From NCBI RefSeq assembly GCF_003403075.1, contig NZ_CP031557.1, positions 1,736,001-1,800,000 on the forward strand: a stretch of 64,000 nucleotides of DNA. The letters are read 5' to 3'. Position numbers and translations under genes: made by a program. Below are positions 20,501 to 43,402 of the stretch, one piece after another. This DNA comes from Flavobacterium psychrotrophum. GTDB lineage: Bacteria > Bacteroidota > Bacteroidia > Flavobacteriales > Flavobacteriaceae. A model generated the notes under the pieces. That model saw only the letters and a program-made list of their open reading frames with translations. It was not told the origin of the DNA and searched no databases. How positions within the stretch are numbered: position 1 is the stretch's first letter; every line of letters starts with the position of its first letter.

Positions 20501-22712
20501 TGTAAACACCGTAATAAGCTATGGTGCAGATTCATCAAGAAAATACATAACATCATATTTCTACAGAAATATTAATGTAGACCTTGCTAACGTATCAGAC
20601 TTTGTAGAGTTTGGCCTTAAGCGCGATGATGGTGCTATTGTATATGTAAATGGTGTAGAAGCCTTCAGGCAAAACCTGCCTGAAACAGGTGTAACATATC
20701 TTACTAACTCTTCTACTACTGTAGATGGTGCAGATGAAAACAGGTATTACACAGAGCTACTGCCTAAAACAATCTTCCAGGATGGCCTTAACCGCGTGTC
20801 TGTAGAAGTACACAACCGCGATGCATCGAGCTCAGACCTTAAGTTTGATATGTACATTAAAAATGCACAGGATCTTGCTTTAGAGTGTGATGCGCCACAC
20901 ATTGGTTGCTTTACATCTATTAACCCTACCGGACAAACCACTAAACTTATCATAGCTGAGGAACACCGTTTCCAGATGATATTTAAAGAAGGTGAAGCTT
21001 ATACTGTAGGTGGTGGTAATGTACCGGGTAACCATGATTACACTGCTTATGTGCCTATTGATGGCAGTAGCGAAGTAGGACATCTTTCGGTTAACCATGA
21101 AAACAACCCGGGTGGAGTTTCAATGCTTAACATACATCTTAATACAGATAACCTGTTATGGGGTGTAGACACATCTAAACCGGTAGATTTCTATAACAAC
21201 GACCTTGTTACTACAAACAGGAACTGTTCTGGTGGTACTACACCTTGGGGTACTGTAGTTACTTCTGAAGAAGCTACAGATGCCGGCGACGTTAACGGCG
21301 ACGGTTACCAGGATGTGGGCTGGCTTGTAGAAATAGACCCTGCAACAGGCTTAGTAAAAGAATATGGTAATGGCAAACAGGAAAAACTGTGGGCTATGGG
21401 CCGTATGAATCACGAGAACGTGGTGGTAACACCAGATGGTGCTGCTGCTTACTATGGTGAAGATGGTGGTACACATTGTATGTACAAATTTGTACCTACT
21501 GTACCTAATAACCTTTACTCTGGTAAAGTATATGTACTTAAGCTGGACCTTGCTCTTTCTTCTGATGAGGCAAGTTCATCTACAGCTACATGGGTTGAAG
21601 TACCTAACACTACGCAGGCAGACAGGAATAACCTGAATATAAATGCTGCTGCACTGGGCGGTACTAACTTTAACGGTGTTGAAGACTGTGAGATCAATCC
21701 TTTTAACGGTATGGTTTACTTTACATCTAAAGGTAAAAACCGTATTTATCGCTTTAAAGATAATGGTAATACCGTTTCTGAATTTGAAGTATTTGCAGGT
21801 GGCAGGTCGTACCCTATACAAACGGCAAACGGCATTGTAGAAGAGCCGTGGGCAGATGGTAATGACAACCTTGTATTTGATGATAAAGGTAACCTTTGGG
21901 TATGCCAGGATGGTGGTAAAATGTACATTTGGGTAATAAGGCCAGACCACAAACAGGATAATCCTAATGTGTTACTGTTTGGCTCTATGCCGGCAGGTTC
22001 TGAGCCAACAGGTTTAACCTTTACGCCAGATTATAAGTACGGTTTCTTCTCGGTACAGCACCCTAACGGAAACAATGTATCGCAAACTGATGCTGCACGT
22101 AATGAAGTTAATTTTAACGCTTCTGCTACGGTAGTATTCTCACTAGACCAGTTCCTTGGCCTTCAGGCTCCTGTAGCTGATTTCGTTGCAGACGATGTTA
22201 CCGTTACAGAAGGACAATCAGTAACCTTTACTGACCTTAGTACACACAACCCTACTGCATGGCAGTGGACGTTTGAAGGTGGTACTCCGGCTACGTCTAC
22301 AGAAGAGCACCCGGTAGTTACTTACAACAATGCTGGCGAGTATGATGTTACCCTTGTAACATCTAATGAAGCAGGAAGCAGCGAAGCAGTAACTAAAGCG
22401 GAGTACATACTGGTTGAAGAAACGGCAGGTACAGATAACCCTGTTAAAGGCATGGTGGCACTATACCCTAACCCTACAAGTGGTAAGGTAACTATAGAAC
22501 TTAACCAGGCGATAGCAGGCGAAAAAGTTTCTGTTGAGGTATTTGACCTTGTGGGAAGAAAAGTTACCGAAAGGAACAACCTTTCTACCATTGGCGGAAG
22601 CCAGAAAATTGAACTTGACCTTTCTGCTTATGCAGGCGAGCAGGTGTTTATTATCAAACTACACGTGGGTAATAACACAGGCAGCTATAAGCTGATGAAA
22701 GTAAAGCAATAA
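14580..22712 (+). CDS. Giant type IX-secreted protein: PhoD phosphatase + four LamG + PhoX-like + PKD + sorting domain
   Basis: The 2710-residue protein has a signal peptide (about 1-23). A PhoD-type metallophosphatase domain (about 128-455) keeps the family ligands: Cys137 in SGGCAR, Asp179 and Tyr182 in GDAVY, the NHD at 232-234, and His366 in ADIHEQ. Four LamG/concanavalin-like domains begin near 465, 661, 1028 and 1392. The last three are each followed by a similar beta-rich module, giving three ~364-residue repeats. Two tandem ~168-residue jelly-roll modules (about 1757-2098) contain DDG(V/A)(V/I)VYVNGVEAFR. A PhoX/DUF839-like domain (about 2100-2530) has NHE at 2172-2174 and PWGTVVTSEE. 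A PKD domain (about 2530-2615) and a type IX sorting domain (ALYPNPTSGKV to the C-terminus) end it. The product is probably a secreted or surface-bound phosphoesterase. No phosphate-regulation motif was recognised. Confidence 0.9.
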   Translation: MKKKLLFFGFVVSLCMSFGAQAQSIPGDSIVHGPMLSPVYNNKVRVWVLTKNGTGSGNALSISLTGSNAPATPLTGTVHNQDDRLGYSLRSFEYTGLTPGATYTANVLVNGTASARTASIANGQSTLGDFSFLSGGCARIYDLTRCIDIPESATHINGDPGIFNVMAQEDSDMMVWLGDAVYLLGLQHAMGQCPDGVDDWANKDMAFDRYLFYRKYHDQLISAMPQLAITDNHDTGPNEFNKTMPTLGEMRDIFKDWWPNPEYKDTPEGQGLFSSYVYKDVEYFLLDNRSYRDGTQQHLGPDQLAWLKQGLLNSTATFKVLINGTPSFERNCGGRNFCNTAQGNEIIQYIQQNNINGVISLSADIHEQKFMIREGDTKYPLYDVLSGNLNSDVGTGNGNFNINYGSDYILTGVKQTYLKVSVFGEENDRRMKVQYVGLNGQPYFEEIIHEDMLTSQNSDALKLSLGLDNALTDASGFNHAFTTTGVAYAADRDGVANGAAQFTAATDVHTAAVNALNFHDRPFSLVMWVNPSQLPANGATFLSNGVAGSGMSLGMDATGKLTFTNHATGTVYTSNYSVLPNAWSHIVWKYDNVRRKLSLYFNGFLIQSWANVISSAASTADVKIGNNFQNKKFIGALDNFRLYGRIISDEEIMNDAEIESTRGGVLKMSGASNMAIPGAAVNESLANNFTIEFWGKLNADPGTNYKLLASNGRVNNNSTGISFEFPDSNKLNVVVGNNTSGWNTISEQGAAWNIGEWNHVALSATKNGTMKYYVNGVLIAEGNFGQYVGNTWGLGLGKSPAYSGGVNGDLDELRIWKKALTQEEIAQRMHYTLTGTEADLAHYYTFNSEEEGVTTIDDLGSSNQDIAISGALLAPATSPVSVIETGYRDVVTGKWSRNNAINNGGLSLPDAITNYSSNVIIGKHNADATAAVPGHEGMTYATGGWFIDPVNSPFATVRINLTQAIANFSTISANAGHFYLIKQDSETEFTTVAEGNFDGQNATFYNANLAEGKYFVAWSAGEFTAGRGGALSLAGGHQVQIPYADMNATLDNAFTIETWVNLTADPGGNTPLVSNHGRVNNNTTGLTIEMPDNNSVSATFGTGTSSWNSINSGASLRVGEWNHVAVTAIPGQNIKLYVNGELKATAAYSDFAPNTNWNFAIGRSINYNSQTTSVMDEFRVWNKAKTQQEIKDQMHAIINAEDNNLVYNFTFDQENNGTLVNHGTNTAAIAYTSAQIIDATSPVAEINAAFPDKMAGNWSVTNETTNGLYLTTAITSFTQNVVISRNNNSNILPLGTEEETSYVAGGWHVNAQGITAANLQVSLEGVLANPAQTNATVENYMLIKGDPTSNYEVVATAASEGLLVNFGNINLAMGNYYLAFTTDVGAVISEQGGALHLAGNHEVYVPKEGVNNALAQSFTIELWARLNATAGPNTKLVGFTSLTNGNWGWEMEFLGNQTLQTITGKGAGGGWNSLNSSRVWSHGEWNHVAVTFTPNGEFKLYVNGELAGSTPVTGTFQPCANNLAFGRNVANNGQTNSDIDEFRIWTVAKSEADIRRDMYLTMPQGVTNLAYNYTFNQEDSGYLINTGSVAVEVPYNNASIIPATDPVRDVETAYRGNVGANWSVKNDNRNGMYLTDIIASNDQNVVIGKEAGTEILTLPNTDNADRKYLNSRWKFESLYVENGAPKADLTKIFSNLNDVNVLANEYYLIQGDPQGTYTVIATGTKQNNIVSFGSITFNDQPVYLAWLTDTTYPVGSFPIAAQSLWKYNDLGTDLGTNWKTNDFDDTTWTFGNGILGYGDNNQSTLLSYGTDANNKYPTTYLRHTFNVENAAQYGSLLFDVLRDDGVVVYVNGVEAFRNNMPEGDITYNTYASSQIGGADETTYVETITANMLQDGENVIAVELHQGAANSSDLSFDMTVRALPPALEAANYPLSKDSEWHYLDNGTSLDAVAWGVTDYAPGWLSGKAPLGYGDPVNTVISYGADSSRKYITSYFYRNINVDLANVSDFVEFGLKRDDGAIVYVNGVEAFRQNLPETGVTYLTNSSTTVDGADENRYYTELLPKTIFQDGLNRVSVEVHNRDASSSDLKFDMYIKNAQDLALECDAPHIGCFTSINPTGQTTKLIIAEEHRFQMIFKEGEAYTVGGGNVPGNHDYTAYVPIDGSSEVGHLSVNHENNPGGVSMLNIHLNTDNLLWGVDTSKPVDFYNNDLVTTNRNCSGGTTPWGTVVTSEEATDAGDVNGDGYQDVGWLVEIDPATGLVKEYGNGKQEKLWAMGRMNHENVVVTPDGAAAYYGEDGGTHCMYKFVPTVPNNLYSGKVYVLKLDLALSSDEASSSTATWVEVPNTTQADRNNLNINAAALGGTNFNGVEDCEINPFNGMVYFTSKGKNRIYRFKDNGNTVSEFEVFAGGRSYPIQTANGIVEEPWADGNDNLVFDDKGNLWVCQDGGKMYIWVIRPDHKQDNPNVLLFGSMPAGSEPTGLTFTPDYKYGFFSVQHPNGNNVSQTDAARNEVNFNASATVVFSLDQFLGLQAPVADFVADDVTVTEGQSVTFTDLSTHNPTAWQWTFEGGTPATSTEEHPVVTYNNAGEYDVTLVTSNEAGSSEAVTKAEYILVEETAGTDNPVKGMVALYPNPTSGKVTIELNQAIAGEKVSVEVFDLVGRKVTERNNLSTIGGSQKIELDLSAYAGEQVFIIKLHVGNNTGSYKLMKVKQ

Positions 22713-26837: not shown

Positions 26838-26859
26838 AATTTACGATATATCGTAAATT
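26838..26859. promoter_or_regulatory. 22-bp perfect palindrome, putative activator site 1
   Basis: The core TTTACGATATATCGTAAA (26840-26857) is a perfect palindrome, extended by two pairs on each side. A 26-bp block starting at 26832 is identical to the block at 41224-41249. It lies 101 bp before the YcaC-type hydrolase start and 54 bp before a -24/-12-like element, the usual position for an upstream activator site of a sigma-54 promoter. Which protein binds is inferred, not shown. Confidence 0.65.
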
Positions 26860-26909
26860 ATTTCAAACATTAAAAACGCAATACGCTTAACATCAACATA
26901 ATAAACAAA

Positions 26910-26925
26910 AGGCATTGTATTGGCT
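26910..26925 (+). promoter_or_regulatory. Candidate sigma-54 promoter 1 (-24/-12)
   Basis: AGGCATTGTATTGGCT keeps the invariant GG-N10-GC of sigma-54 promoters (consensus TGGCAC-N5-TTGC) with mismatches at other positions. It sits 33 bp before the ATG at 26958. No TAnnTTTG element is present in this intergenic region. Confidence 0.5.
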
Positions 26926-26957
26926 TATGTAGATACAAAATAAAAATAATAGTATTT

Positions 26958-27590
26958 ATGAAACCATCTCCAAACTTATTGGCACCAGACAACCACGCAC
27001 TGGTATTGATCGACTTTGAAGGCCAAATGGCCTTTGCAACAAAAAGCATCTCAATTACAGAACTGCGCACAAACGTAGCGATCGTTGCCGGGGCATCAAA
27101 AATTTTTGATGTACCTACCATTGTTACCACAGTAGCCGAAGAAAGCTTCTCTGGACCCGTGTTTCCTGAAATCGAAGAATTTTACCCGCAGGCTACATCA
27201 GGTTATCTTGACCGTACCAGCATGAACACCTGGGAAGACGAAGCCGCTTACAAAGCCATTACCGGTACAGGTAAGCAAAAACTGGTACTTGCCGGCCTGT
27301 GGACAGGTGTATGCATTGTAGGCCCTGCCCTTTCTGCCCTTACCGAAGGTTATGAGGTATATGTAATTACAGATGCCTGTGGCGATGTAAGCAACGAAGC
27401 CCATGAGCGTGCCATACAGCGCATGGTGCACGAAGGTGTAAAACCTATCACATCGGTACAATACCTTTTAGAACTGCAAAGAGACTGGGCACGCCAGGAA
27501 ACCTATGTAGCCGTAACCGACCTGATGAAGAAATATGGTGGCAGCTATGGCCTGGGCATTCAGTATTCTCACATCATGCTGAAACATTAA
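26958..27590 (+). CDS. Isochorismatase-family cysteine hydrolase, YcaC type
   Basis: This 210-residue cytosolic hydrolase has the alpha/beta isochorismatase fold. Asp19 in LVLIDFEGQ and the nucleophile Cys119 in GLWTGVCIVGPALSAL are present. The segment LDRTSMNTWEDEAAYKAI corresponds to the RPGNINAWDN region of E. coli YcaC, with Arg in the position often held by Lys. Substrates of YcaC-type enzymes are not settled; amides are plausible. It is the first gene of a likely five-gene operon (hydrolase, outer membrane protein, secreted M17 N-domain, amidohydrolase, DoxX) and lies behind the putative sigma-54 promoter. Confidence 0.88.
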   Translation: MKPSPNLLAPDNHALVLIDFEGQMAFATKSISITELRTNVAIVAGASKIFDVPTIVTTVAEESFSGPVFPEIEEFYPQATSGYLDRTSMNTWEDEAAYKAITGTGKQKLVLAGLWTGVCIVGPALSALTEGYEVYVITDACGDVSNEAHERAIQRMVHEGVKPITSVQYLLELQRDWARQETYVAVTDLMKKYGGSYGLGIQYSHIMLKH

Positions 27591-27641: not shown

Positions 27642-29006
27642 ATGAAAAACAGTTACCTCATAATCATTTTTATACTGCTGAGCTGCAACGCGGGTGCCCA
27701 GTCGTTTAAGCTTATGCGTTATGATGAAAACTATGAGTACCTGAAAGACTCTGCCCGTAACTTTTATGAGGGTATAAAGTTTATTCCGCTATCAGCAGAT
27801 AAAAACATATACGCATCCGTTGGCGGCGAGGCAAGGTATGAGTATGTTGATTTTAATAACGAAGACTGGGGAAGGTTAAATACAGGGCATAATAACTTTT
27901 TGCTGCAACGGTATGACCTGCATGCCGATGTACATTTTGGCAGCAGGGTACGGTTCTTTGGGCAGTTAAGAAGCGCATTACAAAGCGGACGCAAGAACGG
28001 CTCGCGCCCCATAGATGAAGACCAGCTAAACGTGCAGAACCTTTTTGTAGATGTAGTACCCTGGATAAAAGACAAACAAGCCATAACCATAAGGGCAGGC
28101 CGTCAGGAAATAGACTACGGTTCAGGCAGGCTCATATCAGTACGCGAAGGGCCTAACGCCAGACTGTATTTTACGGGAGCAAAAGTTATGTATAGTGCAC
28201 CAAATGTTACCGCAGATGTTTTTGCCATGATGGCCGATACCACCTATGTAGGAACATTTGACAATAAACCATCCCGTCAGCTTAACCTGTGGGGCGGTTA
28301 CTCTAAAATAATAATTCCGCGTAGTGGTAACTTAGACTTTTACTACATAGGCATTAAGCGAAACAATGCAGCTTTTGAAGAAGGTCTTGGCAAGGAGCTA
28401 CGGCATACTGTTGGCTTCCGTTTCTGGAAGTATGGCGGTGGCTTTATCTATAACCTTGAGGGAGCGTATCAGTTTGGGAGCTTTGGCAATGGCAATATCA
28501 GCGCATGGACGGGCTCGGCAGACCTGGGCTATTCTTTTGAAAACACTACATTCAAACCCACCATTAACCTCCGCAACGATTATATATCGGGCGATAAACA
28601 CGCCGGCGATGGCAGCCTGCAAACCTTTAACCCTATTTACCCAAAGGGCGGATACTTCGGCTTTAGCCCGCAAATAGGCCCGGTTAACTTAATAGACATT
28701 CACCCTTACGGAACGCTCGACCTGCTGAGCAACCTTAAATTTCAGGCAGATGTGGTGTTTAACTGGCGCTACTCAGTAAACGATGGCGTATACAGGCCAA
28801 GCGGTGGCTTTAACCTTGCAGGTTCATCATCTTCCAAACGATATATTGGTACCGCCTATCTCGCAAGTTTTGTGTACAGCTATAGCAAATTCATAACCCT
28901 TAACACAGGCATTCAATATTTTAAGACCGGTGCTTTTGTAGACGACATCATCCCCAACTCTAAAAACGGGCTTTTTATCAATGCGCGCCTTGGCTTTAAA
29001 TTCTAA
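27642..29006 (+). CDS. Alginate-export-type outer membrane beta-barrel protein
   Basis: The 454-residue protein has a signal peptide (MKNSYLIIIFILLSCNAGA). It has alternating-residue beta strands typical of an outer membrane barrel and ends in FINARLGFKF with C-terminal Phe. The stretches ASVGGEARYEYVDFNNEDWG, LQRYDLHADVHFGSRVRFFG and AGRQEIDYGSGRLISVREGPN match the alginate export (AlgE-like) domain, also found in general porin-like proteins. It starts 51 bases after the YcaC-type gene and 17 bases before the next one. It probably admits or exports the substrate of the neighbouring hydrolases. No alginate genes are nearby, so the name refers only to the fold. Confidence 0.82.
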   Translation: MKNSYLIIIFILLSCNAGAQSFKLMRYDENYEYLKDSARNFYEGIKFIPLSADKNIYASVGGEARYEYVDFNNEDWGRLNTGHNNFLLQRYDLHADVHFGSRVRFFGQLRSALQSGRKNGSRPIDEDQLNVQNLFVDVVPWIKDKQAITIRAGRQEIDYGSGRLISVREGPNARLYFTGAKVMYSAPNVTADVFAMMADTTYVGTFDNKPSRQLNLWGGYSKIIIPRSGNLDFYYIGIKRNNAAFEEGLGKELRHTVGFRFWKYGGGFIYNLEGAYQFGSFGNGNISAWTGSADLGYSFENTTFKPTINLRNDYISGDKHAGDGSLQTFNPIYPKGGYFGFSPQIGPVNLIDIHPYGTLDLLSNLKFQADVVFNWRYSVNDGVYRPSGGFNLAGSSSSKRYIGTAYLASFVYSYSKFITLNTGIQYFKTGAFVDDIIPNSKNGLFINARLGFKF

Positions 29007-29023
29007 TCATAACTAAATCCATC

Positions 29024-29743
29024 ATGAAAAATATTCTATCACAATTAAAAACAGTACACTTTTCATTAGTACTGGCACTATTACTAACAACAACACTTAC
29101 AGCACAAACCACCGCTATAGGCACTTCAAAAGTATGGGGCACTATAGAAGGCGTAGCTATAGAAGGCCTTGTGCAGGGCCCATCGACAGCAAAATCAGAT
29201 TTACAGGTAGCCTGCGTATTTGAATATACTGAGGGCGATATTTACAATACCCCTCCTGCCCTGCCGGCACAGCTAAACGGACTTGTACACCTTGATGATG
29301 CACTAAAGGGACAGCTTACTGCACTACGCAAAGCGGGCAAATTTCATGGTTATGCACTGGAAACTGTAGTACTTACACCTGCAAAAGGTACACTGGCGGC
29401 ACCTAAATTACTCATCATCGGCCTGGGCGACCGCAATGCGTTTACCCCGGAACTAATGAAAAAAGTGGGCAGTGTAGCCGTAAGGGAAGCCCTACGCCTG
29501 GGGGTAGAAAACTTTTCTTTTGCCAGCGACCTTAAAGATGCAGGCATTGACTCGCCTACGGCAAAAGTGGCCGGATATGTAACCGAAGGTATTTTTGATG
29601 CTTACCGCAGCGAGCTTTGGTTTAAAGAAAACAAGCTGTCAACATTTAAACCGCTTAAAAAAGTTATCCTGCTGGCAGGGCCTGCCTTTTTTGAAGTAGC
29701 AGGACAAGGTATTAACGAGGCTATTTCTAACCTTAAAAACTAA
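29024..29743 (+). CDS. Secreted protein with a peptidase M17 N-terminal-like domain only
   Basis: The 239-residue protein has a signal peptide (hydrophobic FSLVLALLLTTTLTA then QTT). The rest resembles the N-terminal macro-like domain of leucyl aminopeptidases: LDDALKGQLTALRKAGKFHG, a strand around APKLLIIGLGDRNAFTPE, and a helix with SVAVREALRLGVENFSFA. The catalytic M17 C-terminal domain with its zinc ligands is absent, and the frame closes naturally with a stop four bases before the amidohydrolase start. It is therefore unlikely to be a peptidase. A binding or regulatory role in the periplasm is an inference. Confidence 0.75.
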   Translation: MKNILSQLKTVHFSLVLALLLTTTLTAQTTAIGTSKVWGTIEGVAIEGLVQGPSTAKSDLQVACVFEYTEGDIYNTPPALPAQLNGLVHLDDALKGQLTALRKAGKFHGYALETVVLTPAKGTLAAPKLLIIGLGDRNAFTPELMKKVGSVAVREALRLGVENFSFASDLKDAGIDSPTAKVAGYVTEGIFDAYRSELWFKENKLSTFKPLKKVILLAGPAFFEVAGQGINEAISNLKN

Positions 29744-29747
29744 TACC

Positions 29748-31637
29748 ATGCAGGCAGATACTATACTTTACAACGGAAAAATATACAGCCACGTGCGCGA
29801 AAATAAGGGTGCAACTGCGGTAGCCATTAAAGATGGCAAGTTTATAGCCGTAGGTACAGACAGCGATATCATGACGCTTAGCACGGCTGCTACAAAAATT
29901 ATTGACCTTAAGCAAAAGCGTGTAGTGCCGGGCATTAACGATTCGCACATACACCTTATACGCGGCGGTCTTAATTATAACCTGGAACTGCGCTGGGATG
30001 GTGTACCCTCTCTTGCCGATGCGCTGCGCATGTTAAAGCAACAGGTAGACATTACGCCATCGCCACAATGGGTGCGCGTGGTAGGCGGCTGGAGCGAGTT
30101 TCAGTTTGCCGAAAGGCGTATGCCTACACTTGATGAGATAAACGCCATAGCGCCTGAAACGCCCGTGTTTATACTACACCTGTATGACAGGGCTTTTATG
30201 AACCGTGCCGCGCTTAAAGCCGTTGGCTATACTAAAGATACCCCTGCCCCTCCCGGCGGGCAGATACAGCGCGACAGCAAGGGCGAACCTACAGGGCTAA
30301 TCATCGCATCGCCAAATGCCATGATACTGTACAGTACACTCGCTAAAGGCCCCAAGCTGTCTTACGAGCACCAGGTAAACTCTACACGCCATTATATGAA
30401 AGAGCTTAACCGCTTTGGCATTACCAGCGTTATAGATGCAGGCGGCGGCTTTCAGAATTTCCCTGACGATTACCAGGTAGTTAATGAGCTGAATGAAAAA
30501 AAGCAACTTACTGTGCGCATTGCCTACAACCTGTTTACGCAGCGTCCTAAAAAAGAGTTTGAAGATTTTAACGACTGGATCGACTCGGTAAAACTGTACC
30601 AGGGCGATGATATGTACCGACACAATGGTGCGGGCGAAATGCTGGTATTCTCTGCGGCAGATTTTGAAGATTTCCTGCAGCCACGTCCGGACCTGCCAGA
30701 AAACATGGAGGCCGAACTTGAAAAGGTCGTACGCCTGCTGGTAGAAAACCGCTGGCCTTTCAGGTTACATGCAACCTATAACGAAAGCATTACCCGCTTT
30801 TTAAACGTGTTTGAAAAAATAGACCGCGAAGTGCCTTTTAACGGCCTGCCCTGGATTTTTGACCATGCCGAAACCATAGATGAACGCAATATAGAGCGTG
30901 TTAAAAAACTGGGCGGTGGTATTGCCATACAAAGCCGTATGGCCTACCAGGGCGAATATTTTACCGATCGTTATGGTGCAGCTGCGGCAGAAAGCACGCC
31001 ACCTATCAAAAAAATGCTAGAGATGGAAGTACCCGTAGGCGGCGGAAGCGATGCCACACGGGTAAGCAGTTATAACCCCTGGGTAAGTATGTATTGGCTA
31101 ACGGCAGGTAAAACCGTAGGCGGCCTGCAATTATATACCGATACCCGCCTGAGCCGCGAAACGGCCTTAGAACTTTATACACGCGGCAGTGCATGGTTTA
31201 GCCAGGAACAGCAAAAAAAGGGCGATATACAAACCGGTATGTTTGCAGATCTTGCCGTATTAGATAAAGACTACTTTACTGTAAGCGAGGAAGCTGTTAA
31301 AAGCATAGAGGCAGAACTTACCATTGTAGACGGTAAGATTGTATATGCAAAAGGCGACTTTTCATCCTACTCCCCTCCTGTTATACCTATACTGCCAGAC
31401 TGGTCGCCAACCAAAAGCTTTAACGGCTATTACAGCGATGCCACACACGGGCATAAATTACTGGAAGCCGAAAAGAAAAATGCGGGTAAACCCAACCTTA
31501 CAGCGCAGGTACACAGTTGTGCAGGCAGTTGCAATGTGCACAACCACAACCACGACACCGCAAGGATGAGCAACCTGCCTATTAATAACTACAATGCTTT
31601 TTGGGGCGCGTTAGGCTGCTCATGCTTTGCATTTTAA
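29748..31637 (+). CDS. Amidohydrolase family protein, YtcJ type, with Cys/His-rich tail
   Basis: The 629-residue cytosolic protein opens with the composite-domain sequence ADTILYNGKIYS and AIKDGKFIAVG. Metal-site motifs of amidohydrolase_3 follow: NDSHIHL (HxH), HATYNES, DHAETIDE and GGGSDATR with the catalytic Asp. Members of this class hydrolyse amides and related compounds; the substrate is unknown. After the family's normal end (about residue 580) there is a tail with HSCAGSCNVHNHNHD and a final GCSCFAF, which could bind metal. It is probably translationally coupled to the gene four bases upstream, and DoxX follows after 13 bases. Confidence 0.88.
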   Translation: MQADTILYNGKIYSHVRENKGATAVAIKDGKFIAVGTDSDIMTLSTAATKIIDLKQKRVVPGINDSHIHLIRGGLNYNLELRWDGVPSLADALRMLKQQVDITPSPQWVRVVGGWSEFQFAERRMPTLDEINAIAPETPVFILHLYDRAFMNRAALKAVGYTKDTPAPPGGQIQRDSKGEPTGLIIASPNAMILYSTLAKGPKLSYEHQVNSTRHYMKELNRFGITSVIDAGGGFQNFPDDYQVVNELNEKKQLTVRIAYNLFTQRPKKEFEDFNDWIDSVKLYQGDDMYRHNGAGEMLVFSAADFEDFLQPRPDLPENMEAELEKVVRLLVENRWPFRLHATYNESITRFLNVFEKIDREVPFNGLPWIFDHAETIDERNIERVKKLGGGIAIQSRMAYQGEYFTDRYGAAAAESTPPIKKMLEMEVPVGGGSDATRVSSYNPWVSMYWLTAGKTVGGLQLYTDTRLSRETALELYTRGSAWFSQEQQKKGDIQTGMFADLAVLDKDYFTVSEEAVKSIEAELTIVDGKIVYAKGDFSSYSPPVIPILPDWSPTKSFNGYYSDATHGHKLLEAEKKNAGKPNLTAQVHSCAGSCNVHNHNHDTARMSNLPINNYNAFWGALGCSCFAF

Positions 31638-31650
31638 TTCCCGCCTATAT

Positions 31651-32079
31651 ATGGAACTTATAAAACTCATTTTTACTTCAGATGCCGGTAGTGCTTTTAA
31701 CAATGCGGCACTACTTGCCTTTAGGGTACTGCTTGCTGTAGAGCTCTTCAGGGTGCACGGCATGAAAAAATTCAGGATTGAGAACGGACAGAAAGAGCAC
31801 GTTCCCAATCCGCTGCACCTGCCCGAAAAACTGAATGGGCTTGTGGCAACATTTTCAGATACCGTTGTGCCATTCCTCATCATACTGGGCATGGGAACCC
31901 GCCTGGCAGTATTGCCTACCATTGGCGTGACAGCCATTGGCTATTTTGTAGTACATAAAAACGACTCGTTAGAAGTACGCGACGTGCCTTATATGTACAC
32001 GCTTTCGCTATTGTTTTTACTGGCATTGGGCGCAGGCACATATTCTGTAGACCATTATATCTTGAGCCTTATCAATTAA
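31651..32079 (+). CDS. DoxX family membrane protein
   Basis: I use the ATG at 31651 (MELIKLIFTSDAG, 142 residues) rather than an in-frame TTG at 31627. Four membrane segments fit the DoxX/DoxD-like fold: AALLAFRVLLAVELF with the HGMKKF segment after it, DTVVPFLIILGMGTRLAVL, GVTAIGYFVVH and YTLSLLFLLALGAGTYSVDHYI. DoxX proteins are implicated in quinone or thiol redox processes at the membrane. It is the last gene of the operon beginning at 26958; tandem hairpin repeats follow. Confidence 0.87.
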   Translation: MELIKLIFTSDAGSAFNNAALLAFRVLLAVELFRVHGMKKFRIENGQKEHVPNPLHLPEKLNGLVATFSDTVVPFLIILGMGTRLAVLPTIGVTAIGYFVVHKNDSLEVRDVPYMYTLSLLFLLALGAGTYSVDHYILSLIN

Positions 32080-32085: not shown

Positions 32086-32237
32086 TTTTACCACGGAGTC
32101 CACTAAGATTTTCACTAAGAACACTAAGCTGGTACGATAAATAGACCATACTGAATGACCACAAAGCTTTGTGTCCCTCCGCCGAAGGCGGTTCTCATTG
32201 TGCACTTAGTGAATACCTTGTGCCTCTTGTGGTAAAA
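32086..32237. repeat. Hairpin repeat family A, tandem copy 1
   Basis: The unit begins TTTTACCACGGAGTC and ends GTGGTAAAA, giving terminal inverted repeats. Inside are CACTAAGA sub-repeats and the palindromic CACAAAGCTTTGTG. A 40-bp spacer (containing TAAAACTAAAATCCAG) separates it from copy 2. Confidence 0.92.
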
Positions 32238-32277
32238 TATTAAAACTAAAATCCAGCTAAAAAAGATTCTTAGAAGA

Positions 32278-33844: not shown

Positions 33845-34816
33845 ATGAAGCCCAAACTATCACTAAGTGCTAACGATAAGGCACACTTTACCTACGCCTT
33901 GTTGCTGTTATCTCCTTTTTTATATGGTGCAAAGGCAGATTTACAGGAATTAAAATTGCACTTTGAAGTCAGTGAACAGGAAGATACCTCTGTAGTAGCA
34001 AAAGAAAACCGGCCGCACCACGATCTCATAGCCAGATATGTAGCCATAGGAAGCCTTATTATCTTGTTTATCCTTATCGGGTTGCTTTATAAAAGCAGTC
34101 ATAAAAACAGGAAAATAGCCCTTGCCCTGATTGATAAACAGGATGAAATATCATGCCGGCAGGAACTCTTAGAAAAGCTTACGGCAGAAAAAGAATGGCT
34201 GCTTAATGAGGTACACCATAAGGTAAAAAACAACCTTCAGCTGGTCGTTAGCCTGCTGAATACGCAAAGCGCTTACCTTGAAAATGAAGAAACAGTAAAG
34301 GCACTGCAAAGCAGCAAACACCGTATGTATGCTATGTCGCTGGTGCATAATAAGCTCTACAATGCCAAAAATTTAAACTGTATTGATATGGCAGGATACA
34401 TTGCTGAATTAGTGCATCAGCTTAAAGAGAGCTTTGATCCTCACGGAAATATTACTTTCAAGCAGGATGTAAGCAATATTATACTGGATGCAGAACAGGC
34501 CATTCCTATAGGGCTTATAATTAACGAAGCTGTTACCAATGCGTTTCAGCATGCTTTTACAAGTACTAAAGGGAAGTTAGCGGTAGCGTTAACAGAAAAC
34601 AGCAACAGCTGTACCCTTAGCATTAGCGATAATGGCCCCGGACTTGTAACCGATTTTGATGCTGACCAAAATGGGGCAGTGGGCATGAATCTTATGAGGG
34701 GACTGGCAGATCAGCTGGATGGTACTTTTAGCCTTAAAAATTGTGATGGGCTTACTGTAGCGATTATCTTTACAAAGAAATACCATAAAACCGGCAACGC
34801 ATACAACAATATATAA
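33845..34816 (+). CDS. Sensor histidine kinase, HisKA_2 / HATPase type
   Basis: The 323-residue protein has a short N-terminal region of about 60 residues, one clear membrane helix (about 68-84), a coiled segment, and a HisKA_2 dimerisation domain with LLNEVHHKVKNNLQ (phospho-acceptor His at 124 or 125). A HATPase domain follows, with N-box NEAVTNAFQHAF and G-box SDNGPGL. It lacks the usual periplasmic sensor or TPR array, so it is a minimal kinase. The stop is two bases before the start of the sigma-54 response regulator gene, its probable partner. Confidence 0.9.
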   Translation: MKPKLSLSANDKAHFTYALLLLSPFLYGAKADLQELKLHFEVSEQEDTSVVAKENRPHHDLIARYVAIGSLIILFILIGLLYKSSHKNRKIALALIDKQDEISCRQELLEKLTAEKEWLLNEVHHKVKNNLQLVVSLLNTQSAYLENEETVKALQSSKHRMYAMSLVHNKLYNAKNLNCIDMAGYIAELVHQLKESFDPHGNITFKQDVSNIILDAEQAIPIGLIINEAVTNAFQHAFTSTKGKLAVALTENSNSCTLSISDNGPGLVTDFDADQNGAVGMNLMRGLADQLDGTFSLKNCDGLTVAIIFTKKYHKTGNAYNNI

Positions 34817-34818: not shown

Positions 34819-36186
34819 ATGATGAAAGAGAAAATCTTAATTGTTGAAGATGAATTTATTGTAGCTAACGACCTTAAGATAATGCTTATAAAAGCAGGAT
34901 ACCAGGTAACCGGCATAGCATCATCTGTAGTGCAGGCGCGCAAGCTCATCCAAGATAAAAGGCCAGACTGGGTATTGCTGGATATTATGCTTAAAGGCGA
35001 CCTTACAGGCATAGACCTGGCGTGGGAACTTATGGAGCAAAACCTGCCGTTCCTGTATATTTCTGCCAATACAAACCATACCACGCTGGAAGCTGTTAAA
35101 GCCACACAGCCCTATGGTTTTATGGTAAAACCCTTCAGGGAGCGCGACCTGCTGGTAATGTTAGATATTGCCCGTTACCGTTACGGCATCGAAAAAGGTA
35201 TTTCAGAATCGGGCAGTAATACAACATCTTCATCTAAGAGCATTGAAGGCATCATTGGCCAAAGCCAAAACCTGATAAACGTTTTAGATAAAATTAAAGT
35301 TGTTGCCCCTACCGATACATCGGTGCTTGTGCTGGGCGAAAGCGGTACGGGTAAAGAACGTATAGCCCACTCCATACACGAACTGTCAGGCTTAGGCAGT
35401 AATCCGTTTGTTATTGTAAACTGTGCCGCACTGCCGGAATCGCTTATTGAATCAGAACTCTTTGGGCATGAAAAGGGGGCTTTTACAGGAGCAAACACCA
35501 TGCGCCCCGGTAAATTTGAGCAGGCACACAACGGTACCATTTTTTTGGATGAGATAGGCGAATTGCCTTTAGACTCACAGGTTAAACTGCTTAGGGTATT
35601 GCAGGAAAAAGAAATAGAACGCCTTGGTGGCAGCAGTACTATTAAAGTAAACGTACGCATTATTGCCGCAACCAACCGCTGCCTCGAAAAAGAAGTTGCC
35701 GAAGGACGCTTCAGGCTCGACCTCTATTACAGGCTTAACGTTTTCCCTATCGAATTGCCGCCACTGCGCGATCGAAAAGACGATATTGAGAGCCTTGCGC
35801 AGCATTTCCTGAATAAATATGCTGCCAAAGCCCGAAAGGCCGTAACCGGAATTTCCGCGGAGGCACTAAGCCAACTGCAAAACTATAACTGGCCGGGAAA
35901 CATACGCGAACTTGAACATCTTATAGAGCGTAATGTACTGCTGGCAAGAGGCGAAATAATAACGCACTTTGATATGCCGGTAACAATAAATGCTACACCT
36001 GTTACAGAAAAATCAGGAGCGATGCTTTCTATGGAAGACATGGAGCGCGAACATATTATGGCTGCACTAAAAATGTGTAGCGGCAAAGTTTTTGGATCTG
36101 GTGGCGCCGCCGAAATCCTTAAAATACCTGCCACCACGCTATATTCTAAAATGAAGAAGCTGGGCATAAGGCAGGAATATTATTAA
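34819..36186 (+). CDS. Sigma-54-dependent response regulator (receiver-AAA-Fis)
   Basis: The 455-residue activator has a receiver domain (about 5-120) with acidic residues EDE at 10-12 and phospho-acceptor Asp55 in LLDIMLKG. A sigma-54 interaction AAA domain (about 145-375) contains Walker A GESGTGKE, the sigma-54 loop GAFTGA, Walker B FLDEIGELP and the arginine-finger region. The C-terminal Fis-type HTH reads GSGGAAEILKIPATTLYSKM. It activates RNA polymerase-sigma54 at -24/-12 promoters from upstream sites. The kinase gene is immediately upstream. Its recognition helix is very close to that of the activator at 39542, so the two may share targets. Confidence 0.94.
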   Translation: MMKEKILIVEDEFIVANDLKIMLIKAGYQVTGIASSVVQARKLIQDKRPDWVLLDIMLKGDLTGIDLAWELMEQNLPFLYISANTNHTTLEAVKATQPYGFMVKPFRERDLLVMLDIARYRYGIEKGISESGSNTTSSSKSIEGIIGQSQNLINVLDKIKVVAPTDTSVLVLGESGTGKERIAHSIHELSGLGSNPFVIVNCAALPESLIESELFGHEKGAFTGANTMRPGKFEQAHNGTIFLDEIGELPLDSQVKLLRVLQEKEIERLGGSSTIKVNVRIIAATNRCLEKEVAEGRFRLDLYYRLNVFPIELPPLRDRKDDIESLAQHFLNKYAAKARKAVTGISAEALSQLQNYNWPGNIRELEHLIERNVLLARGEIITHFDMPVTINATPVTEKSGAMLSMEDMEREHIMAALKMCSGKVFGSGGAAEILKIPATTLYSKMKKLGIRQEYY

Positions 36187-36204: not shown

Positions 36205-37140
36205 ATGAAACACAAAATATCAGGGCTGCACCACATTACAGCCATAGCGGGCAATGCCCAAAAGAATTTCGATTTTTATACTAAAGTACTTGGCCTGCGC
36301 CTGGTTAAAAAGACGGTGAACTTTGATGATCCCGGTACTTACCACTTTTACTATGGTAATGAAGAAGGTGCCGCGGGAACCATACTTACCTTTTTCCCGT
36401 GGGAAAATATCGGGCAGGGACAGGCAGGCAACGGGCAGGCTACCGAAATTGGCTATGCCGTACCGGAGGGTAGCCTGGAGTTTTGGACAGAGCGTTTTAA
36501 ACAGCATAATGTAAACTTTGGCGAAGCAGCAGAACGTTTTGGAGAGCACTACCTTCCGTTTACAGATCCTGACGGGCTAAATATCAGCCTGATCGTACCA
36601 AAAGTTGCAGACATTCGTAAGCCGTGGGAAACTGCCGAGGTTAAGCAGGATGCCGCTACTAAAGGTTTCCACAGCGTTACCCTGAGCCTTGACAAGATAG
36701 ACGATACCGCAAGGATACTTACTGATATCTTTGGCTACAGCCTACAATCGCAGGAGGGCAACCGTTATCGCTTTGCTGTTGATACTGTAGATAATGCCAA
36801 TATTGTAGACCTGCTGGAACAACCCGGGACATCAAGGGGGCGCAATGCTGCAGGCACTAACCACCACGTAGCCTTTAGGGTACCTAATGAGGAAGTGCAA
36901 ATGGCTTTCCGCGAAGAGATACAAAGCAAGAACCTGAACATTACGCCAAAAATAGACCGCGATTACTTTTACTCGTTGTACTTTAGAGAACCGGGCGGTG
37001 TACTGTTTGAAATTGCTACAGACAATCCCGGATTTACCGTAGATGAGCCACTTAACGAACTGGGCACTCACCTTAAGCTGCCGAAACAACACGAGCAGCT
37101 ACGTAACCAACTGGAAGAATTTTTACCTAAAATAAAATAA
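36205..37140 (+). CDS. Ring-cleaving dioxygenase, MhqO type (VOC superfamily)
   Basis: A 311-residue protein with two vicinal-oxygen-chelate halves. Metal-site residues are visible as GLHHITAIAG near the N-terminus and, in the second half, NHHVAFRV and GGVLFEIATD. Motifs LGLRLVKKTVNFDDPGTYHF and AGTILTFFPW are characteristic of MhqO/MhqA-like hydroquinone dioxygenases, which open quinol rings during quinone and aromatic stress. It lies 18 bases after the response regulator gene. Together with the MhqD-type hydrolase at 37705 it recalls the B. subtilis mhq system (inference from family knowledge). Confidence 0.9.
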   Translation: MKHKISGLHHITAIAGNAQKNFDFYTKVLGLRLVKKTVNFDDPGTYHFYYGNEEGAAGTILTFFPWENIGQGQAGNGQATEIGYAVPEGSLEFWTERFKQHNVNFGEAAERFGEHYLPFTDPDGLNISLIVPKVADIRKPWETAEVKQDAATKGFHSVTLSLDKIDDTARILTDIFGYSLQSQEGNRYRFAVDTVDNANIVDLLEQPGTSRGRNAAGTNHHVAFRVPNEEVQMAFREEIQSKNLNITPKIDRDYFYSLYFREPGGVLFEIATDNPGFTVDEPLNELGTHLKLPKQHEQLRNQLEEFLPKIK

Positions 37141-39541: not shown

Positions 39542-41140
39542 ATGCAGCAAAAAAATCCGCAGGCTGATGCCATTTTAAAAGCCATCCAGGAACGGGAACA
39601 AAACCATTTGCTGCAACTGCAACTTTGTACCGCACTGGCACAGGTAACCGACAGAAATGGACTATCTGCGGTAGTGCATCAGCTTAAAGGTATCATCAAT
39701 TTCAATGCGTTTGTAATTGCGGTTACAGACCGGTACGAAAAAGAATACAACATATTTTTTCACGACAGCGATAAATCTCAGGCAGAACTATTGGGCGCTG
39801 TGCACCAGGTTGAAGATGGTTATTTTGATGTGGCGCAACAATCGGCTGAACCGGTTAGCTTTAATCTGCTCAATGTAAACCCTAATAAAGCCGGCCTGCC
39901 CATTTTTATACAACGGGAACGACAGGTAGCCATGCGCGAAGCTATCGCTTTCCCCCTGCACTATCATAAGAATAACCCTTCGGTAGTATTTTTATTTTTC
40001 AAAAATGCCAGGGGCTTTACACCACAGGTACACCGTTTATTAAAAAGCATTTCGATGCAGGTAGCGTTAACGGTATCTAACTGCCTCATCACACAAAAAA
40101 TTGCATTGAATGGGAATATCCCAAATACTGTTTCTGTAAAAGAAGAAACAGAAGCGACCCTTACCGAAGCCGAAGTCATCGATCATTTTTCGGGCATTAT
40201 AGGACAGAGCGCTGCCATGCAAAAGGTTATTACGCTCATACAGCAGGTAGCCCCGTCAGATTCTGGTGTGTTGCTGCTTGGCGAAAGCGGTGTGGGTAAA
40301 GAGGTTGTTGCATCGGCTGTACATAAAAATTCTGAAAGGAAAAACAATAAAATGGTGCGCATAAACTGTGCTGCCATTCCTGCAAACCTTATAGAGAGTG
40401 AATTGTTTGGGCATGAAAAAGGCAGCTTTACAGGTGCTACAGAGCGCAGGATAGGCAAGTTTGAACAGGCTGACAAGGGCACACTTTTTCTGGATGAAAT
40501 AGGTGAATTACCCCTCGCCCTGCAAACAAAACTACTACGCGTTTTGCAGGAGCGCGAATTTGAGCGTATAGGCAGTGCCAAAACCATTACCGTAAATGTG
40601 CGTGTTATTGCAGCGACCAACCGCAACCTTGTACAGGAAGTTGCTGCCGGGCGCTTCAGGGCCGATTTGTTTTACAGGCTTAATGTGTTCCCTATTATTA
40701 TACCGCCGCTACGGGAACGGAAAGAAGACATTGCGCAGCTTAGCACCCATTTTATAGCTGAATTTTGCAGGAAAAACAGAAAGAAAACAAAAACACTTGC
40801 AGCGAAGGTTTTAGAAGCCCTTACCATTTACACATGGCCGGGTAATGTGCGCGAACTGCGCCATATACTGGAACGTAATGTGCTACTTACCCCTGGTACT
40901 ACAATAACAGAAATACAACTTCCTGAAATTATTACTCATGGTGTAAACGACGACCACAATTTAAAAACACTGGGAGAGGTAGAAAAAGAGCACATTCTTA
41001 AAGCAATAAAACTTTGTAGCGGGCGCATTTCAGGGGCTAATGGGGCTGCTAAAAAACTAGGGATACCCCACACAACCCTGCTTTCAAAAATGCAAAAACT
41101 GGGCATTAAGAAAAACCATACCATTGACGAAAGCAAATAG
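39542..41140 (+). CDS. Sigma-54-dependent activator with N-terminal GAF-like domain
   Basis: A 532-residue activator. The N-terminal ~190 residues look like a GAF sensor (LQLCTALAQVTDRNGLSAVV, later AIAFPLHYHKNNPSVVFLFF). A sigma-54 AAA domain follows (about 215-445), with Walker A GESGVGKE, loop GSFTGA in place of GAFTGA, and Walker B LFLDEIGELP. The Fis-type HTH at the C-terminus reads GANGAAKKLGIPHTTLLSKM. There is no receiver domain, so it probably senses a small molecule directly. The gene lies 222 bases before the alpha/beta hydrolase gene that carries palindrome site 2, suggesting local control. Confidence 0.93.
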   Translation: MQQKNPQADAILKAIQEREQNHLLQLQLCTALAQVTDRNGLSAVVHQLKGIINFNAFVIAVTDRYEKEYNIFFHDSDKSQAELLGAVHQVEDGYFDVAQQSAEPVSFNLLNVNPNKAGLPIFIQRERQVAMREAIAFPLHYHKNNPSVVFLFFKNARGFTPQVHRLLKSISMQVALTVSNCLITQKIALNGNIPNTVSVKEETEATLTEAEVIDHFSGIIGQSAAMQKVITLIQQVAPSDSGVLLLGESGVGKEVVASAVHKNSERKNNKMVRINCAAIPANLIESELFGHEKGSFTGATERRIGKFEQADKGTLFLDEIGELPLALQTKLLRVLQEREFERIGSAKTITVNVRVIAATNRNLVQEVAAGRFRADLFYRLNVFPIIIPPLRERKEDIAQLSTHFIAEFCRKNRKKTKTLAAKVLEALTIYTWPGNVRELRHILERNVLLTPGTTITEIQLPEIITHGVNDDHNLKTLGEVEKEHILKAIKLCSGRISGANGAAKKLGIPHTTLLSKMQKLGIKKNHTIDESK

Positions 41141-41231: not shown

Positions 41232-41249
41232 TTTACGATATATCGTAAA
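41232..41249. promoter_or_regulatory. 18-bp palindrome, putative activator site 2
   Basis: TTTACGATATATCGTAAA is identical to the core of site 1 at 26840, and identity extends upstream to 41224 (26 bp in all). It lies 113 bp before the alpha/beta hydrolase start and 55 bp before a -24/-12-like element, almost the same layout as at site 1. Confidence 0.65.
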
Positions 41250-41302
41250 AAATGTTTTGGCATAAAATTACAAATCACTCATAAACAATATTTTAAATTA
41301 AA

Positions 41303-41318
41303 GGGCATGTAAATTGGT
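41303..41318 (+). promoter_or_regulatory. Candidate sigma-54 promoter 2 (-24/-12)
   Basis: GGGCATGTAAATTGGT matches TGGCAC-N5-TTGC at most positions (GGCA, G, TTG) but has GG instead of GC at -12. It lies 44 bp before the ATG at 41363. No TAnnTTTG element is seen here. Confidence 0.45.
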
Positions 41319-41362
41319 TATTACATAACAAATCAATTTTAATTCAATTTAATTTAAAAGTT

Positions 41363-42355
41363 ATGAGCACATCACAAATTACAAATGCCATCCCTAACGT
41401 TGCAAACGATCCTGCAATTTCAACAGAAACAAAAAAATTCCTTGCAGCCTTAAACTCGGGTGGCGTACCACTAGAATCGTTATCACCTTTAGACGCACGC
41501 CAGGTATTGGTAGGTGCACAAAAATCGGTAGAAGTAGATTATTCAGGTATTGAAGAATCAGAAAAAACCATTACCCAGGACGGCTATACACTAACACTAA
41601 ACATTGTAAAACCTGAAGGTACTACAGGTACCCTGCCTGCATTTATATTTATCCACGGTGGTGGCTGGGTGCTGGGCGATTACCCTACCCACAAGCGCAT
41701 GGTGCGTGATCTTGCAGTACTATCTGGCGCGGCAGGTGTATTTGTAAACTATACCCCAACTCCCGATGCGCAATTTCCGCAGGCAACAAACGAAATCTAC
41801 GCGACCACTAAGTGGGTAGCCGAAAACGGCAGCGAAATAGGTATTGACGGTTCTAAACTGGCTGTTGTGGGTAACAGTGTTGGCGGAAACATGACAGCAG
41901 TAACGGCTATTAAAGCAATAGAAAACAACGGGCCAAAAATTACCAACCTTATTATGCTATGGCCTATAGTTGATAACAATTTTGAGACAGAAACATACAA
42001 ACGTTTTGGTACAGACCGTTTTCTTACCACATCGTTAATGAAATGGATGTACGACCTGTACACTACAGACCAGACCGAGAGAGACAGCATGTATGCTTCG
42101 CCAATAAATGCTCCGGTAGAGATACTTAAAAACTTCCCTCCTACGCTTATACAAGTTGCCGAAGCCGATGTACTTCTTGAAGAAGGCGAAGCCTTTGGCC
42201 GTAAACTAGATGACGCCGGTGTTACTGTAACCACAGTGCGCTACAATGGCATGATTCACGATTTTGGTTTGCTGAACCCTCTTGCACATCTTCCGCAAAC
42301 AAAATCTTTATTTGTACACGCTGCTGCAGAACTTAAAAAATATCTTTTCTCATAA
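41363..42355 (+). CDS. Alpha/beta hydrolase, hormone-sensitive-lipase-like esterase
   Basis: The 330-residue esterase shows the HSL-family oxyanion motif FIHGGGWVLGDYPTH, nucleophile elbow GNSVGGN with Ser172, an acidic residue in IQVAEADVLLEEGEA, and the catalytic His in GMIHDFGLLN. There is no signal peptide, so it is cytosolic. It opens a three-gene unit with a second alpha/beta hydrolase (9 bases downstream) and a small protein, behind palindrome site 2. The substrate is unknown; esters of aromatic or short-chain acids are plausible. Confidence 0.9.
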   Translation: MSTSQITNAIPNVANDPAISTETKKFLAALNSGGVPLESLSPLDARQVLVGAQKSVEVDYSGIEESEKTITQDGYTLTLNIVKPEGTTGTLPAFIFIHGGGWVLGDYPTHKRMVRDLAVLSGAAGVFVNYTPTPDAQFPQATNEIYATTKWVAENGSEIGIDGSKLAVVGNSVGGNMTAVTAIKAIENNGPKITNLIMLWPIVDNNFETETYKRFGTDRFLTTSLMKWMYDLYTTDQTERDSMYASPINAPVEILKNFPPTLIQVAEADVLLEEGEAFGRKLDDAGVTVTTVRYNGMIHDFGLLNPLAHLPQTKSLFVHAAAELKKYLFS

Positions 42356-42364
42356 TCATAAGCC

Positions 42365-43066
42365 ATGAAGGATACTACTATAAAAAACATTGTAATTGTG
42401 CATGGCGCTTTTGCCGATGCATCGGGTTGGGAACCTGCTTATAAAATATTAAAAAGCAAAGGTTATAAAGTAACCCTTGTGCAAAACCCAACTACCACAC
42501 TGGAAGATGATGTAACCGCCACTAAGGCAGCGCTGGACCGACAAGATGGCCCCGCTTTACTGGTTGGGCATTCCTGGGGCGGTACGGTTATAACCGAAGC
42601 CGGCATTCACGACCTGGTAGCGGCACTGGTATATGTAGCAGCTTTTGTACCCGATGTAAACGAGTCTACCCTGCAACTGGTACAGTCTGAAAAGATACTT
42701 GAGGTAAATGGTATTTTGCCTCCGGATGATAAAGGGTTGGTATATCTGGATGAGGCGCTTTTTAATCAAACCTTTGCCACAGGGCAAAGCGCTGAGAAGT
42801 CTGCTTTTATGTATGACTCACAAATTCCACTTACGGTAAAATCATTTATTACACCCGTTACAAATGCAGCCTGGAGGAGCAAACCATCATATGCTATTTT
42901 ACCAACAGATGACGCTACAGTAAATCCTAAACTACAGTACACCATGTACAACCGCGCGGGCAGTACCATTACAGAGATGACCGGTGGACATACTTTGTTT
43001 ATGACACACGCCGAGGAAGTAGCAAACGTAATTATAAAGGCTGCACAAAATACTAACCTTTTATAA
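42365..43066 (+). CDS. Alpha/beta hydrolase (EstC/salicylate-esterase-like)
   Basis: A 233-residue hydrolase with N-terminal IVIVHGAFADASGWEPAYKIL (oxyanion loop) and nucleophile elbow GHSWGG with Ser70. The late His in MTGGHTLFMTHAEEVANVI completes the triad. The HGAFADASGW start is typical of a widespread bacterial esterase family related to plant salicylate and hydroxynitrile esterases. It is the second gene of the unit that begins at 41363. Confidence 0.9.
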   Translation: MKDTTIKNIVIVHGAFADASGWEPAYKILKSKGYKVTLVQNPTTTLEDDVTATKAALDRQDGPALLVGHSWGGTVITEAGIHDLVAALVYVAAFVPDVNESTLQLVQSEKILEVNGILPPDDKGLVYLDEALFNQTFATGQSAEKSAFMYDSQIPLTVKSFITPVTNAAWRSKPSYAILPTDDATVNPKLQYTMYNRAGSTITEMTGGHTLFMTHAEEVANVIIKAAQNTNLL

Positions 43067-43081
43067 CCTGTAAGTTAAGAT

Positions 43082-43402
43082 ATGGAACATCAAAACACAC
43101 AACCCTATTTTGATACTGTTACAGAGGCGTTGCAATGGTTAGGCACAGAAGGATATACGCATGACTTTAATCTTGATAATGACTGCATCAGGTTTAATAA
43201 TGGTGCGCAGGCCATGTCGCCGCAGGATTTTAATATAGAATACGTTTTTCGCTTTGAGGGTGAAACAGACCCGGGAGATGAGAATATTGTTTATGGCATA
43301 AACTCTGACACTTTTAAGGTTAAAGGAGTAATGATTAGTGCCTTTGGTGTGTATGCCGATGAAATTTCAGACGAAATGCTAAAAAAACTCTCGGTACATT
43401 GA
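43082..43402 (+). CDS. Small conserved Bacteroidota protein, unknown function
   Basis: The 106-residue protein begins with a helix (FDTVTEALQWLGTEGYTHDF) followed by acidic beta-rich sequence with NIEYVFRFEGETDPGDENIVYG and GVMISAFGVYADE. The family is common in Bacteroidota and is sometimes labelled phosphoribosylpyrophosphate synthetase in databases; its length and lack of a PRPP loop speak against that. It lies 15 bases after the second hydrolase and ends before a strong terminator. Confidence 0.75.
   Translation: MEHQNTQPYFDTVTEALQWLGTEGYTHDFNLDNDCIRFNNGAQAMSPQDFNIEYVFRFEGETDPGDENIVYGINSDTFKVKGVMISAFGVYADEISDEMLKKLSVH

Follow-up and report, generated by a model that had tools for sequence, protein, structure and literature searches.

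In excerpts of PMC4987338, the site of FhlA, the activator of the formate hydrogenlyase regulon, is a palindrome (CATTTCGTACGAAATG). Closer to the organism considered here, sigma-54 promoters of the -24/-12 type have been mapped in Flavobacterium psychrophilum and one of them was mutagenised; the text of that work contains the term 'palindrom' 0 times (PMC9723704). Searches of an open-access library yielded nothing on the palindrome or the regulon described below and little on activator sites in the phylum, and the one paper in which the 12-base core of the palindrome turned up deals with Cas12a and is unrelated. REP and other small extragenic repeats are short palindromes that are mostly extragenic and lie near gene 3' ends. 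The present analysis compares a palindrome found twice in one block of a Flavobacterium genome with these systems.

Results

Two palindromes are each followed by a -24/-12-type element

The window is the whole 64-kb stretch of DNA that was analysed, and its features are collected in Table 1. The 18-bp palindrome TTTACGATATATCGTAAA has two exact copies, site 1 and site 2, and no third copy was found in the window at up to three mismatches. Shuffled window sequence contained a mean of 0.08 copies and never two. A preliminary description had recognized the duplication and set the beginning of site 1 at 26838, two bases ahead of its exact start. At site 1, a GG at 26911-26912 stands 53 bases from the palindrome, and the element GGCATTGTATTGGC has the form GG-N10-GC with a GGCA start. 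At site 2, the GG at 41304-41305 is 54 bases away, and GGCATGTAAATTGG has the form GG-N10-GG, again with a GGCA start but with the -12 C lost. A sigma-54 promoter carries GG at -25/-24 and GC at -13/-12, ten bases apart; site 1 has this arrangement and site 2 does not. The GG-N10-GG form of site 2 is itself conserved in relatives. The earlier report of GGCAT-type elements about 54 and 55 bp past the palindromes, with the invariant GG-N10-GC kept at site 1, thus holds for GG-type elements with 53 and 54 bases between.

The window was scanned for the palindrome core (up to five mismatches) with GG-N10-G[CG] at 52-57 bases. The three matches were sites 1 and 2, both with 0 mismatches, and one place with five. 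The same scan of 30 Markov sequences gave none at up to three mismatches and, per 64 kb, 0.1 matches at four and 1.0 at five. A promoter matrix built on the GG-N10-GC class scored site 2 low; the later pattern covers both classes. TAnnTTTG, which the preliminary description had stated to be lacking in both regions, is absent from 26838-26957 and from 41232-41362.

Table 1. Features of the window, with their positions, strands, and supporting matches
Feature	Position	Strand	Match or remark
18-bp palindrome, site 1 (predicted enhancer / upstream activator site)	26840..26857	.	recurs at this position in front of many downstream-gene orthologs
Sigma-54-type -24/-12 element AAGGCATTGTATTGGCTT (GG-N10-GC), site 1	26909..26926	+	pattern and conservation
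Isochorismatase-family (YcaC-type) hydrolase, first gene of the site-1 operon	26958..27590	+	PF00857
Rest of the site-1 gene run: alginate-export-type porin, peptidase M17 N-domain protein, amidohydrolase, DoxX-like protein	27642..32079	+	
HisKA_2 histidine kinase, adjoins the response-regulator activator	33845..34816	+	
Sigma-54 activator 1 (response regulator, AAA+, HTH_8; GAFTGA)	34819..36186	+	PF00158
Glyoxalase-like protein; relatives are the divergent target beside activator 2 in 6 Flavobacterium loci read	36205..37140	+	
Sigma-54 activator 2 (weak GAF, AAA+, HTH_8; GSFTGA), most likely the palindrome binder	39542..41140	+	PF00158
18-bp palindrome, site 2	41232..41249	.	exact match
-24/-12-like element AGGGCATGTAAATTGGTT (GG-N10-GG), site 2	41302..41319	+	class of AGGCATRTTATTTGGCTA in relatives
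Site-2 gene run: two alpha/beta hydrolases and a 106-aa protein	41363..43402	+	

Gene content around the two sites

The best NCBIfam profile for the YcaC-type protein is NF041461 (YcaC), with a score below its cut-off. Gene spacing suggests that the site-1 gene run is one operon. The 106-aa protein that closes the site-2 run is a homolog of the product of the gene immediately 5' of YcaC in relatives. Near the runs lie genes for a Dps-like protein, a glyoxalase-like protein, and an esterase that matches MhqD weakly, and the whole gene set may be one for electrophile or quinone detoxification.

PF00158 matches confirmed the claim that two sigma-54 activators are encoded in the same block. Both proteins have Walker A and a sigma-54-contact loop, GAFTGA in activator 1 and GSFTGA in activator 2. 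The genome has rpoN (PF04552 match, one locus) and 17 PF00158 matches in all, seven above 200 bits. The best NCBIfam profile for activator 2 is FhlA, at 396 bits against a cut-off of 830, which leaves it outside the FhlA class. By analogy, activator 2 may nevertheless work like FhlA.

Several further features of the window were recorded. A tandem repeat (193-base unit, 2.8 copies, 91% matches) occupies 32086-32632, between the DoxX-like and Dps-like genes, and pieces of it recur at 39436-39484. A MITE-like element of about 190 bases with inverted ends is present at 37492-37677 and at L005:3834-4028 and L014:6656-6840, with about 70-74% identity. A single open frame of 2710 aa spans 14580-22712.

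The arrangement at site 1 is conserved before YcaC genes

YcaC orthologs were searched in 398 genomes of the genus, 84 of which (own genome included) match at an E value of 1e-60 or better. The comparison used 31 promoter regions, namely the best 30 of the 84 loci (own included) and L045, from a named Flavobacteriaceae genome. A palindrome was called when it had up to four mismatches and lay 90-110 bases 5' of the gene. Palindrome and GGCA-N8-GC occur together in 17 promoters, the palindrome only in two, the promoter element only in none, and neither in 12 (Fisher P = 6e-7). The spacing in the 17 is 54 bases 15 times and 53 twice. The element is damaged in the two palindrome-only loci, L117 and L118. 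At several of the 12 palindrome-free loci another gene was seen by eye directly 5', so the YcaC gene is probably operon-internal there. The preliminary description had set as a test the search of relatives for the palindrome followed by GG-N10-GC at about 55 bp, and this was found in 17 of the 19 palindrome-bearing YcaC promoters and in 0 of the 12 others.

A second YcaC-type gene, 74-75% identical, has a one-mismatch core about 200 bases before it in four genomes (G065, G346, G363, and G106). The one locus of this kind that was read, L185, is without a promoter of the expected kind.

Conservation extends to other sites and taxa

Searches for the activators and for the palindrome core covered 31 genomes of the genus. 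The degenerate core TTACGAWATATCGTAA, allowed up to one mismatch, has a match in 30 of the 31 relatives, with 0 to 5 forward matches a genome. A hand count gave 83 distinct places. Of these, 63 are no more than about 20 kb from a YcaC or activator-2 ortholog and 17 lie elsewhere; another 3, all in G141, were left unassigned. Reading the core backward gave 13 forward and 13 reverse matches, so the places elsewhere are at about chance level. Taking the best 30 palindrome loci, one per genome, GG[CAT]A-N8-G[CG] was found at 53-56 bases in 25 and at other offsets up to 160 four times over those 30 loci. The offsets were 54 (11 loci), 55 (10), 56 (3), 68 (2), and 52, 53, and 140 (one each). The palindrome therefore stands at a conserved distance upstream of a promoter in relatives, as is expected of a sigma-54 enhancer, and the co-conservation of the two elements in 25 of the 30 best loci supports the putative sigma-54 regulon of the preliminary description.

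These promoters divide into three classes: TTGGCATTTCATTGGC before YcaC, AGGCATRTTATTTGGCTA before the hydrolase operon 5' of YcaC, and GGAA-N8-GG on the divergent side of activator 2. Site 2 is placed in the hydrolase-operon class because its operon ends with a homolog of the 105-aa gene found there in relatives. On the divergent side of activator 2, GGAA-N8-GG was seen by eye at the same distance in 20 of 26 palindrome-bearing loci. The divergent gene, read in six of these 26 loci, encodes a 312-aa glyoxalase-like protein that is related, via a Chitinophaga copy, to the glyoxalase-like protein of the window.

A scan of 84,980 species, which may leave out the own genome or one very near to it, found the exact 18-mer in 23 stretches. 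Five of them align with this block, including those from Sporocytophaga (TGGTATCATTCTTGG) and Chitinophaga (CGGTACATGGTTTGG, on the reverse side), where GG-N10-GG elements have their GG 54 bases away. The exact copy in F. subsaxonicum is without a -24/-12-type element.

The 18-mer also occurs in other settings. It lies just 5' of AAA_14/DUF4143 ATPase genes in L032, L037, L043, L047, L050, and L051, from Parachlamydiae, Prevotellaceae, Calditrichota, and an unassigned bacterium; the L050 gene is fragmentary and has AAA_14 alone. The 18-mer is the core of a longer palindrome in L032, L043, L047, and L050, where the flanks differ yet stay self-complementary. Eight of 12 viral-contig stretches (L054-L058, L061, L064, and L065) have it in similar flanks beside small XRE-like genes, as judged by eye.

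Activator 2 is the predicted reader of the palindrome

Of 30 loci, 26 have a palindrome with up to two mismatches on the 5' side of the activator-2-like gene, and in 24 of the 26 its distance to the match start is 93 to 109 bases. The four loci without it are G141, G033, G131, and G329, and the G141 protein is the closest to activator 2 (61%), yet has no palindrome before its gene. Activator 2 of the window has none in front either; its palindrome stands 3' of the gene and 5' of the next operon. Orthologs of activator 2 keep its HTH well, and this HTH differs from the HTH of four other activators of the genome; for a fifth, no HTH could be aligned. Activators 1 and 2 have almost the same recognition helix (IPATTLYSKMKKLGI against IPHTTLLSKMQKLGI). 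Activator 1 could therefore be the binder, but activator 2 is favored, and we regard activator 2 as the most likely, predicted one.

It is somewhat unlikely that the palindrome is instead read by activator 1, the response regulator with the adjacent kinase, or by both activators as a common site. The near identity of the helices would allow it, and by eye matches of both activator types lie close together in many relatives. The palindromes before activator-2-like genes argue for activator 2, as does the Sporocytophaga locus, where the sole activator seen by eye within 8 kb is of the activator-2 type. The DUF4143 ATPase of the own genome was considered as a binder because the 18-mer precedes such genes in other taxa. 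This candidate was rejected: other repeats stand in front of the one DUF4143 gene found in the own genome, and its 3.5-kb locus contains no palindrome at up to five mismatches.

Further perfect copies are dispersed through the genome

The whole genome holds 16 exact copies of the palindrome, two with one mismatch, and three with two mismatches, whereas a backward-read control gave one match at up to two mismatches. The dispersed set comprises the 16 copies outside the window, 14 exact and two with one mismatch; the three two-mismatch copies were excluded as chance-like. Among the 397 other genomes of the genus we found no exact copy outside the block. Besides the own genome, only G125 and G335 of the 398 have an exact copy, one each and both in the block, 5' of YcaC in G125 and 5' of the hydrolase gene adjoining YcaC in G335. 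GG[CAT]A-N8-G[CG] was found within about 106 bases either side of 0 of the 16 dispersed copies, whereas both window sites have it at the expected distance. Since 14 of the 16 exact genome copies are without such a promoter, the palindrome alone does not define the regulon.

The dispersed copies favor gene 3' ends: 11 of 16 (10 of the 14 exact) lie within 30 bases of one, compared to 20% of random intergenic positions (P = 3e-5 for 11 of 16). One of the 14 exact copies is gene-internal and one overlaps a gene end. The 14 form four close pairs, 113 to 1333 bases apart, against 0.05 expected. The genes tested beside dispersed copies are mutually unrelated and include those for queuosine synthesis, RecJ, lycopene cyclase, a GreA-like factor, and asparagine synthase, among others. 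In about 0.6 Mb of the genome, a sample enriched for the palindrome by choice, it was the sole perfect 16-base palindrome seen more than once; 393 kb sampled at regular steps contained no copy.

Three properties considered for these copies were rejected. A preference for intrinsic terminators was not evident, as a strict hairpin rule, which missed some hairpins visible by eye, accepted 4 of 16 copies and 38 of 293 gene ends, not clearly above. A second motif beside the copies was sought; with the known pairs set aside, one site among 18 had a neighbor at five mismatches, within the control range. A chromosome-organizing site like parS or matS was set aside because exact copies outside the block were not found in the 397 genomes and coarse sampling of the skew gave no clear pattern. 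Two local arrangements were also observed. At L013:3886-4134, two exact palindromes bracket the gap between a weak-GAF gene and a convergent gene whose product has HD and Pycsar-effector (PycTM) domains. At L009:4058-4099, a stray copy is the center of a perfect 42-base palindrome 3' of a gene.

Two copies that overlap coding sequence bear on how the set arose. In the lycopene cyclase gene, the palindrome is translated as FTIYRK and falls in a variable linker; each of the 28 aligned homologs (31 genomes searched, 28 matched) has a longer linker, and there is no extra stretch. The copy at the GreA-like gene spans the last codons and the stop, giving YTIYDIS here compared to YTIEEIS and similar in homologs; the 25 homologs read, from a search of 25 genomes, end at the same place, and there is no net insertion. 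Change in place thus fits these two copies better than insertion does, although an insertion combined with a deletion may have occurred at them. Two of the four close pairs have common flanks (L011, 55 bp at 91%; L014, 216 bp at 88%), which indicates that local duplication made some copies. No close relative was found for an empty-site comparison at the one locus tried, where the best DNA match was 71-73%.

Discussion

We put the probability at roughly 85% that the two palindromes are enhancers for a sigma-54 activator of the same block, most likely the GAF-type activator 2. The sequences, their spacing and conservation, and the presence of rpoN and the activators are direct observations. The activator would dock on the palindrome, some 87 bases 5' of the start, and sigma-54 RNA polymerase would wait at the -24/-12 element 53-54 bases downstream of the palindrome. 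A signal would be sensed by the GAF domain (or, for the sister activator 1, by its kinase), and the AAA+ ring would then hydrolyse ATP and open the promoters of the YcaC-type operon at site 1 and the hydrolase operon at site 2. Binding, sigma-54 dependence, start sites, and signal are predictions from these sequence features; the nature of the target genes points to electrophile or quinone detoxification as the context of the signal. Counting against this reading are the GG in place of GC at -13/-12 in site 2 and its class, the 14 exact copies that lack such a promoter, the four loci where no palindrome precedes the activator-2-like gene, the same lack before activator 2 of the window, and the element-free copy of F. 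subsaxonicum; palindromes are typical of repressors too, and activator 1 has a closely similar HTH. If correct, this reading supplies a testable enhancer, a promoter class, and a probable activator for a Flavobacterium sigma-54 regulon whose targets look like a detoxification set.

In an alternative reading, the palindrome is the operator of an ordinary regulator at a sigma-70-type promoter, with GG-N10-GC incidental. Perfect palindromes are common as repressor operators, the same 18-mer precedes the AAA_14/DUF4143 genes in 6 of the 23 stretches of other taxa, and by eye it sits beside XRE-like genes in prophages. The promoter element, however, is conserved with the palindrome at fixed spacing, TAnnTTTG is absent from both regions, and sigma-54 activators are encoded alongside, so we judge an operator of this kind very improbable. 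The dispersed copies raise a different alternative, that the 18-mer is a small REP- or MITE-like repeat of the species and the window copies are two of its landings. Its 14 other copies are dispersed, multi-copy, and, but for the gene-internal one and the one at a gene end, extragenic, as such repeats are. The 16 exact copies here, compared to one block copy each in 2 of 397 other genomes, the 11 of 16 dispersed copies at gene 3' ends, the four close pairs, and the common flanks of two of these are what such a repeat would produce. Sites 1 and 2, however, are at places conserved in relatives, and the lycopene cyclase and GreA-like copies have no net insertion relative to 28 and 25 homologs. 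Two landings of a repeat are accordingly a quite improbable origin for the window copies.

The 14 other perfect copies are a separate feature, outside the enhancer explanation, and their identity to the activator site is too exact for chance. They may be selected activator sites, the products of a mobile or duplicating palindrome, or sites of another protein with the same taste. We tentatively suggest, as one possible history, that an enhancer site multiplied in one species into 14 perfect promoter-less copies, mostly behind stop codons, often paired, and made partly by in-place point changes, and that selection keeps them. They would then be real sites with a function away from promoters, such as titrating the activator, stopping antisense or read-through transcription where genes end, or serving as loop anchors. 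The stray copies raise the question why one lineage builds and keeps perfect activator sites at gene ends.

Compared with REP-type repeats, the copies here are identical to a conserved activator site, and the two testable copies have no insertion footprint. E. coli PhoB-type sites offer another comparison, being regulator sites off promoters with no evident transcriptional role (PMC10294691). The E. coli sites are mostly inside genes according to the same study, whereas those described here match exactly over 18 bp, well beyond what chance would give, and tend to lie at gene 3' ends. The F. psychrophilum sigma-54 regulon (motif SM4) has -24/-12 promoters in the same genus, but its named targets in the excerpts of PMC9723704 are chaperone, envelope, and gliding genes. 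The FhlA / formate hydrogenlyase regulon has in common with this locus an AAA+ and HTH_8 activator, a palindromic activator site (PMC4987338, excerpts), and -24/-12 promoters. It differs in that the locus described here has one palindrome, 53-54 bases from the promoter, and that the targets are hydrolases and detoxification-type enzymes rather than hydrogenase.
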